Source: Nioella sp. MMSF_3534
GTDB lineage: Bacteria > Pseudomonadota > Alphaproteobacteria > Rhodobacterales > Rhodobacteraceae
Length of the DNA stretch: 64,000 nt
Reading direction: 5' to 3'
Assembly (NCBI RefSeq): GCF_030732985.1
Contig: NZ_JASHJX010000009.1
Span: 1-64,000, forward strand
In this document: positions 2,463 through 7,775 of the stretch, piece by piece
Layout of the letters: every line of letters begins with the position of its first letter
How positions within the stretch are numbered: the first letter of the stretch is position 1
Made by a program: the position numbers and the translations under genes
The notes under the pieces: generated by a model
The model's database searches: none
What the model saw: the letters and a program-made list of their open reading frames with translations, nothing else
Told to the model about the DNA's origin: nothing

Positions 2463-6858
<4,396 letters not shown>

Positions 6859-6864
6859 CGAAGG

Positions 6865-6893
6865 TTAATAACCCATTAACCATCGTTAACCAT
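6865..6893 (+). promoter_or_regulatory. CtrA-binding site cluster
   Basis: TTAATAACCCATTAA (6865-6879) is an exact TTAA-N7-TTAA CtrA full site. It runs into two copies of the half-site TTAACCAT at 6876-6883 and 6886-6893, one helical turn apart. It begins seven bases after the recG stop and lies upstream of the 40-codon ORF at 6999. CtrA binding is inferred from the consensus. Confidence 0.6.
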
Positions 6894-6915
6894 TGGACCG
6901 GCTTTGTTCTCAAAT

Positions 6916-6930
6916 GTTCTCATAAAGTTC
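6916..6930 (+). promoter_or_regulatory. LexA (SOS) box
   Basis: GTTCTCATAAAGTTC is an exact match to the alphaproteobacterial LexA operator GTTC-N7-GTTC. A third GTTC at 6906-6909 and a GAAC at 6954-6957 flank it. The box ends 68 bases before the ATG at 6999, a usual operator position. It is about 60 bases past the recG stop, so it cannot be recG's own operator. Confidence 0.7.
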
Positions 6931-6998
6931 TTGCATCCTGTGGGTAAATATGAGAACAAAGCGTTAACACGCCACAAGTTGTTCAGGAATTGGAAACC

Positions 6999-7121
6999 AT
7001 GATCACCCAGATCCGCCAGATTCTCGAAACCTCCCGCGACTCGCTGCTTTATGATTTTGCCGGTGTTCTCGCGATCGGCGTGATGACCTTGGGTGCCCTG
7101 CATCTGCCCGGCGCGCTCTGA
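6999..7121 (+). CDS. Candidate 40-residue SOS/CtrA-controlled membrane microprotein
   Basis: A 40-codon ORF starts at an ATG with AGGA ten bases upstream and ends TGA at 7121. The N-terminal half (MITQIRQILETSRDSLLYD) is an amphipathic charged helix. The C-terminal half (FAGVLAIGVMTLGALHLPG) is a single hydrophobic span ending two residues later. It lies behind CtrA sites and a LexA box and ahead of an intrinsic terminator, so it seems to be its own gene. Single-span SOS peptides such as SidA of Caulobacter inhibit cell division; that role is a hypothesis, as I recognise no family. Confidence 0.6.
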   Translation: MITQIRQILETSRDSLLYDFAGVLAIGVMTLGALHLPGAL

Positions 7122-7269
7122 CCTTTTGCCTCTGCCTGCGGTCGTATCTCCGGATGGCTTTTCAATAGCTGCGGGTCTGTCCCCCAACCCCCGCGCTGCC
7201 TCTGCCTCAGGGTCTTTGGAACTGCCTGTCCAAAACCCGGCCTGACGGATCCCCCGACACGCATACCTG

Positions 7270-7307
7270 CCGCCGCCTCCGTGCCCCGGATTGCGGCGGT
7301 TTTTTTT
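7270..7307 (+). terminator. Intrinsic terminator after the microprotein ORF
   Basis: CCGCCGC (7270-7276) pairs with GCGGCGG (7293-7299) and is followed by eight T at 7300-7307. It ends a plus-strand transcript that would carry only the 40-codon ORF and a 148-base 3' region. The convergent iscU-like gene ends 15 bases further on. Confidence 0.8.
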
Positions 7308-7322
7308 GTTCAGAGGTGAAGG

Positions 7323-7775
7323 TCAGGCGCAGGCGGCGGCTTCCGCGTCCGCCATGGCCTGGGCGGTGGCCTCGAAGGCCAGCATGATCGAGGCATGGCG
7401 GTTCTTGTACTCGCGGGCGGGCTCCAGCACTTCGTAGCCGGAAAACGGTGCCTCGGGCGGGGGGGCACCGTCCTTCAGCATGGCGCGCAGCTGATCGCGG
7501 CCCTGTTCTACCTCGGCACGGGTGCGCCCAATGATGTTGGCCGCCATCAGCGCGGCAGAGGCCTGACCGAGCGCGCAGGCCTTCACATCCTGACCAAACC
7601 GAACAATGCGACCATCCTCGATATCGAGATCGACCGTCACGGTCGAGCCGCAGAGCGGCGCGCGTTTGCGCACGGTTGCCTGGGGGGTCTCCAGCCGGTC
7701 GGTCAGCGGAATATCCGCCGCCAAGGCAAGGATACGCTGCGAATAGAGTTTGATCAGGTCGCTTTCGGTGCTCAT
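7323..7775 (-). CDS. IscU/SufU-like iron-sulfur scaffold protein
   Basis: A 150-residue protein of the NifU N-terminal (IscU-like) family, with the strand pattern TVTVDLDIEDGRIVRFGQDVKAC. Two of the three scaffold cysteines are visible, in PLCGS and KACALGQAS. The third, in the HCS motif of E. coli IscU, is replaced by Ala here (RHASIML), and the Asp after the first Cys is Ser. It may therefore be a carrier or regulator rather than a full assembly scaffold. It is divergent from hisI, with the start ATG at 7775. Confidence 0.8.
   Translation of the reverse strand: MSTESDLIKLYSQRILALAADIPLTDRLETPQATVRKRAPLCGSTVTVDLDIEDGRIVRFGQDVKACALGQASAALMAANIIGRTRAEVEQGRDQLRAMLKDGAPPPEAPFSGYEVLEPAREYKNRHASIMLAFEATAQAMADAEAAACA

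Follow-up and report, generated by a model that had tools for sequence, protein, structure and literature searches.

A conserved 40-residue membrane microprotein gene behind recG, with LexA operators and a motif-rich 3'UTR, is a candidate SOS division inhibitor in the Rhodobacteraceae

SOS-induced single-span inhibitors of cell division are already known, and the locus described here is set beside them. SidA of Caulobacter crescentus, a protein of 29 residues in the inner membrane, is induced in the SOS response and acts on FtsW (PMC4211646). YneA of Bacillus subtilis, SosA of Staphylococcus aureus and ChiZ of Mycobacterium are damage-induced single-span proteins that inhibit late division; the membrane span of YneA binds FtsW, while SosA, ChiZ and SidA have been modelled on FtsW, not with high confidence (PMC13396833). 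At the RNA level, the DinR sRNA from the dinI 3'UTR of Klebsiella pneumoniae is driven by a LexA promoter and blocks translation of ftsZ; according to its authors, no other directly LexA-regulated sRNAs are known and the pairing region is specific to Klebsiella (PMC10907235). In Rhodobacter sphaeroides, CcsR1-4 derive from the 3'UTR of ccaF1, an example of a small-protein mRNA with a regulatory 3'UTR (PMC8625941).

The microprotein resembles SidA by description, being very short, SOS-controlled (here by conserved operators), single-span (here by prediction) and alphaproteobacterial. It differs in its length of 40 rather than 29 residues, its fixed place after recG, its presence across a family and its motif-rich 3'UTR. 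The role that we propose for it is like that of YneA, SosA and ChiZ, but YneA and ChiZ carry LysM and SosA has an extended outside part, whereas the predicted topology leaves only a few residues of the microprotein outside. With DinR the locus shares a LexA-driven small-protein mRNA with a 3' part, here in an unrelated host gene and with a candidate RNA role; features of this type are the conserved LexA operators, the predicted structured 3' part and the predicted intrinsic terminator. The CcsR RNAs respond to oxidative stress, unlike the unit with LexA boxes described here. The CcsR motif, CCUCCUCCC, differs from CUGCCUG and CUGUCCC, the motifs of this locus. TisB of Escherichia coli is a short hydrophobic peptide under LexA control with an antisense antitoxin; unlike TisB, the microprotein has strongly constrained residues and a constrained chromosomal position.

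The window, that is the whole stretch of 64,000 nucleotides analysed (G000:C105:1-64000), contains recG, an intergenic unit, a convergent SufU-like gene and then hisI, in this order. A first-pass annotation had placed in the intergenic unit a 40-codon ORF with CtrA sites and a LexA box in front and a terminator behind, and all of these sequence elements are present at the positions given below. A third GTTC, an inverted second box and the motif-rich 3'UTR were absent from that annotation. On the sequence comparisons that follow, the locus is best read as an SOS transcription unit with a single gene, belonging to the window's GTDB family, which by its named members is Rhodobacteraceae sensu lato. 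Its features are as follows.

4756..6858, + strand: recG (NCBIfam NF008164 RecG, 1092 bits).
6865..6879, no strand: TTAA-N7-TTAA, a CtrA-like full site, TTAATAACCCATTAA, lineage-specific (4 of 104 loci).
6876-6883 and 6886-6893, + strand: two TTAACCAT half-sites 10 bp apart, read from the sequence.
6906..6909, + strand: extra GTTC half-site, 10 bp before the first GTTC of box 1 (GTTC in 89 of 103 aligned loci).
6916..6930, + strand: LexA box 1, GTTC-N7-GTTC, GTTCTCATAAAGTTC (103 of 104 loci).
6931..6936, + strand: putative -35 region, TTGCAT here and TTTACA in most relatives, conserved in position.
6954..6968, - strand: LexA-like box 2, inverted, GAAC-N7-TAAC (GAAC-N7-YAAC in 100 of 104 loci).
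6985-6988, + strand: AGGA, ribosome-binding site, 10 nt ahead of the ATG at 6999.
6999..7121, + strand: 40-codon microprotein gene MITQIRQILETSRDSLLYDFAGVLAIGVMTLGALHLPGAL, 40 amino acids plus stop (profile matches, dN/dS, hydropathy).
7122..7267, + strand: 3'UTR with CUGCCUG at 7132-7138 and 7222-7228, CUGUCCC at 7177-7183 and two CUGCCUC at 7196-7208.
7268..7307, + strand: intrinsic terminator with T8 at 7300-7307 and a conserved CCGCCGCC stem (fold, conservation).
7323..7775, - strand: SufU/NifU-like gene, convergent and outside the unit (TIGR01994, 56 bits, below the cut-off of 92.5).

This layout recurs in relatives. In 110 of 113 loci the neighbour upstream on the same strand is recG, whose end is 83-623 nt (median 125) from the ORF; the SufU/NifU-like gene often adjoins the downstream side, and 98 of 104 loci have a tetramer resembling a ribosome-binding site no more than 20 nt from the start. 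The nearest named relative met was Nioella ostreopsis, whose locus clusters beside the window in a small, 15-row tree and encodes a microprotein identical to that of G003, a genome of the same genus. The window protein had no match at E 1 in either Pfam or NCBIfam; for 46 members, Pfam returned three families, each hit by a single member (lowest E 0.0077), none above the cut-off. Nothing in Rfam 15 exceeded its gathering score, the best being sX13 at 16.4 bits against 50. Among the matches listed in a search of the open-licence literature, titles and abstract openings held no description of the gene or the RNA, and the binding-site section of a Dinoroseobacter LexA paper does not name the gene (PMC6473078). 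We found no description of this deeply conserved family, whose members have a pair of LexA operators and a 3'UTR rich in motifs.

The ORF proposed in the first-pass annotation proved to be a real and conserved gene for a single-span membrane microprotein. A search with the single sequence found it in 21 of 101 relatives, and profile A1, built from 20 members, matched 346 of the 394 genomes sampled from the GTDB family. The better-scoring matches supplied a working set of 113 loci, 104 of them unique; with the start assigned as the start codon closest to the first residue of the profile, all 104 begin with ATG and 91 encode exactly 40 residues. A lack of in-frame conservation and of synonymous-site bias had been set beforehand as refuting, and both features are present. 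Over 47 independent close pairs (3-36 differences) drawn from 158 unique 40-codon genes, dN/dS was 0.21, which indicates purifying selection; pN/pS was 0.295 when read in the coding frame, the two remaining forward frames gave 1.14 and 2.32, and the three antisense frames gave 0.96, 0.47 and 2.42. Across 156 unique proteins of 40 residues G22 is invariant, and D19, L34 and P37 are each kept in 99%.

The position of the gene is almost as constant. A 45-bp promoter pattern was scanned across named GTDB contigs and matched at least 118 of them; among the matches listed, all 118 patterns lay downstream of recG and 117 were followed by the microprotein, the sole exception (L232) being truncated by the end of the locus. 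Named hosts among these listed matches include Ruegeria, Roseovarius, Rhodovulum, Paracoccus and Sulfitobacter. One unit, L288 (G332:C2:104000-115000), has no adjoining recG and lies near gluQRS-like and trmFO-like ORFs, a further relocation. In a second class sample of 115 genomes recG was found in 109. Among the best 30 of these 109 recG loci, both family loci have the LexA box, and the 28 non-family loci, which have full flanks, have neither GTTC-N7-GTTC nor GAAC-N7-GAAC in the 500 bp that follow recG; this suggests that the arrangement of recG, LexA box and microprotein is a family trait. Presence outside the family was considered and rejected: profile A1 gave nine matches in the 385 genomes of the class sample, five of them in the family, and the other four (E 1e-4 to 0.009) lie inside open frames of 290-547 codons and were taken for chance. 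A phage or plasmid origin was also rejected, as tblastn of both collections gave no match at E 1.

We followed 20 of the 48 family genomes that had no profile match. The promoter pattern, with up to three mismatches, was present in two. A helicase match was obtained in 19, comprising recG in 15 and weaker helicase matches alone in four; G167 had none. Within 600 bp after recG, 11 of the 15 recG-bearing genomes have a hydrophobic ORF of 36-42 residues together with LexA boxes, and the other four have nothing comparable. True absence was therefore rejected for most of these genomes, which by position alone look like carriers of divergent copies, the weakest case being G135. In G019, G034, G104 and G140, all at least 97% complete, the RecG query gave weaker helicase matches only; recG and the microprotein may have been lost together there, or both may fall in assembly gaps.

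Control by LexA, also put forward in the first-pass annotation, is strongly supported at the level of sequence: of 104 unique loci, 103 have GTTC-N7-GTTC in the 300 bp upstream, where mononucleotide shuffles would give 0.32. The spacer from box 1 to GAAC-N7-YAAC is exactly 23 nt in 91 of the 98 loci counted. In several divergent copies this second element is a perfect GAAC-N7-GAAC, which favours our reading of it as a LexA box. The promoter consensus is GTTC-n-CaaAT-GTTC-TcAaAAA-GTTC-TTTACa, about 11 variable bases, then aAtaTGAGAACAAAg-n-ggcAACA, and its -35 and -10 elements would lie under the two LexA boxes. A simple sigma-70 scan found no sigma-70 promoter at the locus. Throughout the genome GTTC-N7-GTTC occurs 140 times against 123 in the control. 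Motifs in a single genome prove little; conservation across genomes makes the case. The genome has a lexA match at G000:C21:32825-33508 (- strand) with two overlapping GTTC-N7-GTTC boxes just upstream. In the lexA promoter (G000:C21:33542-33567) three GTTC stand at 11-bp spacing, an array resembling that at 6906-6930. Comparison of the loci thus establishes the gene, selection on its reading frame, the LexA operators, the terminator and the motif-rich 3'UTR.

Hydropathy predicts one membrane span in the microprotein at about residues 20-36, and AlphaFold, run with 46 sequences, gives a single helix over residues 2-39 (mean pLDDT 86, pTM 0.45). The first 18 residues hold on average 2.5 K/R and 1.4 D/E, and the last five are uncharged. 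Conservation at residues 14-38 follows the helix periodicity of 100 degrees, a pattern equalled in strength by 11 of 5000 shuffles and suggestive of a single binding face.

A possible partner for this face comes from two genomes of the same genus. In G002 (L286, G002:C81) and G005 (L287, G005:C143) the cassette has left recG, keeping its LexA block, 3'UTR and terminator, and lies 333 and 313 bp upstream of ftsW on the same strand. The FtsW proteins pass TIGR02614 with 347.4 and 340.1, respectively, against a cut-off of 337.5. Following ftsW in G002 are murG (248.2 bits, just below the cut-off of 250.25) and murC (526.8 bits, above its cut-off), and in G005 ORFs that start similarly. Four other genomes of the genus have different ORFs upstream of ftsW, and the LexA box was not found there; in G287, of another genus, a long candidate murD ORF precedes ftsW. 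Since the region upstream of ftsW is prone to rearrangement, the link to ftsW is suggestive only; it comprises two genomes of one genus, probably reflects one event, and the neighbourhood may be accidental. At L349, L350, L351 and L353 (in G000, G003, G001 and G004, respectively), where other ORFs stand upstream of ftsW, the dcw cluster is seemingly broken.

The likeliest function, we infer, is inhibition of division in the SOS response through the septal synthase. In the undamaged cell, LexA would silence the gene by binding both of the opposed boxes, which cover the probable -35 region and the -10 region and start, respectively. Upon damage, RecA-triggered cleavage of LexA would free it, and the product of 40 residues would insert as a single helix with its N-terminus inside. 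The conserved face, formed by T15, D19, G22, L26, L30, L34 and P37, would then dock on a partner in the membrane, for which FtsW, the septal peptidoglycan synthase, or the partners of FtsW are the most probable candidates, and division would be paused until repair is complete. Binding and induction by LexA, the topology, the partner and the division arrest are all deduced steps. Arrest through the septal synthase is preferred because of the ftsW adjacency, the conserved helix face and the SidA and YneA precedents. The possible division brake of the first-pass annotation is thus plausible and is strengthened, in terms of gene order, by the two genomes with the cassette directly upstream of ftsW. 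Two further points weigh against this reading: 110 of 113 copies are beside recG, and a short hydrophobic peptide controlled by LexA could equally be a depolarising toxin. We hold the full proposal, a LexA-switched helix that brakes division through FtsW or its partners, tentatively, at a little under even chances.

It is also possible, though less likely than not, that the transcript acts as a bifunctional SOS RNA whose C-rich, looped 3'UTR base-pairs with G-rich translation starts, much like DinR, or else binds an RNA-binding protein. The five motifs at 7132-7228 are the only dense cluster in the 64 kb (5 per 200 nt; next best 2), and the UTR is the densest motif cluster of its own locus, ties included, in 97 of 107 named loci. 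Counted over the 215 nt after the stop in 194 nonredundant UTRs and compared with dinucleotide shuffles, CTGCCTG occurs 247 times against 6.7 and CTGTCC 249 times against 19.5. We also asked how often a motif is flanked by a stem of at least 6 bp, taking as control the exchange of right flanks among sequences in 200 trials. CTGTCCC has such a stem in 43.7% of 199 cases against 14.4% (highest 20.1%), inner CTGCCTG in 28.5% of 130 against 10.0% (highest 17.7%) and TGCCTC in 44.6% of 83 against 22.4% (highest 32.5%). For the CTGCCTG beside the stop codon the stem is found in 0 of 22, and the control is low as well at 4.2%, so this case is little informative. By this test against exchanged flanks, the CUGUCCC loop is kept while the stem changes in a large minority of sequences; the remaining 56% of CTGTCCC have no such stem, which argues against the RNA reading. 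The transcript may be bifunctional, given the family-wide motif cluster and the frequent placement of CUGUCCC in hairpin loops.

The overall fold speaks less clearly for an RNA function. In the window the predicted closing stem of the 3'UTR pairs 7137-7144 with 7255-7263. When 24 UTRs were folded singly, inspection by eye showed most to have a long closing stem with hairpins inside it. The terminator region (7262-7310) folds at -21.1 kcal/mol with a z of -3.7. An alignment of seven near relatives contains 41 pairs, nine of them with double changes, but its covariation term is unfavourable (+0.69). A covariance model from these seven, with the terminator included, reached E 0.01 or better in 74 of 80 named loci; 64 of these matches begin no more than 40 nt from the stop codon and 10 further away. 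Ten non-family loci had no match at E 1 or better. Of the six loci without a match, L216 is a genuine miss and the other five (L169, L176, L215, L222, L232) are truncated at the end of the locus; one extra match at the E 0.01 level, in L184, is out of place on the other strand. Without the terminator, the model matched 11 of 75 named loci at E 0.1 or better and had no such match among 11 divergent copies or 9 non-family loci; because it is so weak in this form, we conclude that the terminator drives most of its signal. The motif cluster and the loop tendency are proved, and a common fold of the family beyond the terminator is not.

In Rhodobacteraceae the dcw cluster is known for an unusual leader that includes the sRNA UpsM (PMC5089854), and for this reason its first gene, mraZ, was examined as a target. 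GGGACAG, the complement of the CUGUCCC loop, precedes the mraZ match by no more than about 60 nt in five of the six genomes of the window's genus and likewise in G287, G007, G010, G014 and G015, that is in 6 of the 12 genera examined; as background, it occurs in 0.9% of 1134 start regions of 40 nt each. The mraZ start regions of L377 (G000:C51) and L379 (G287) carry GGGACAG twice. Duplex energy does not single out mraZ, 490 of the 1134 background starts being equally good; by longest perfect duplex, background fractions ranged from 0.0009 to 0.72 over 15 genomes. Pairing with mraZ, the sole target tried and one whose start is generally G-rich, is put forward as a lead from sequence complementarity. 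The two activities might be combined in a bifunctional checkpoint ancestral to the family, in which the microprotein brakes the septal synthase and the CUGUCCC and CUGCCUG loops silence division or cell-wall mRNAs, with mraZ the first candidate. This is rather unlikely; if true, the division machinery would be stopped and its supply cut off as well.

A toxin in the manner of TisB, depolarising the inner membrane and slowing growth instead of inhibiting division specifically, is unlikely. The LexA operators, the size and the hydrophobicity all agree with it, but a specific partner better suits the near-constant chromosomal site, the near-invariant D19, G22, L34 and P37, the conserved helix face and the ftsW adjacency.

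The first-pass annotation had further proposed gating by CtrA and named conservation of both operators as a check. The LexA operator is conserved (103 of 104 loci); the full TTAA-N7-TTAA site occurs in 4 of 104 loci (0.22 expected), and gating by CtrA as a general feature is not supported. Three of the four loci belong to closely related genomes of the window's genus and the fourth, L142, to G287 of another genus; since the full site is so restricted, a part for CtrA is at most lineage-specific. Within the genus there is some pattern, as TTAACC stands 30-31 bp before the LexA box in all six genomes, including the two relocated copies, in which the shared sequence starts, by eye, about at TTAACC. 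A lineage-specific CtrA input in this genus is therefore possible. A cell-cycle switch gated by both CtrA and LexA would agree with this fixed TTAACC and with the full site and two TTAACCAT of the window, but given the 4 of 104 loci and the lack of genome-wide enrichment of TTAA-N7-TTAA (15 places against 19 in the control) we consider it decidedly unlikely. That the microprotein is a helper of RecG or of another membrane-side repair protein, held beside recG for its function, is very improbable: recG is directly upstream in 110 of 113 loci and four of the 20 profile-negative genomes also have no strong recG match, only weaker helicase matches, but the gene has its own LexA promoter block and terminator, both kept away from recG in L005 and L006, and L133, also without recG, retains the LexA box.

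The preferred reading, an SOS inhibitor of the septal synthase, makes the microprotein a good candidate for a damage-induced halt of division in a large family that includes Ruegeria, Roseovarius, Rhodovulum, Paracoccus and others. Set beside SidA and YneA, it offers a comparison for FtsW as a common target of SOS inhibitors. If the 3'UTR is active as well, it would join DinR, with motifs that extend across the whole family.
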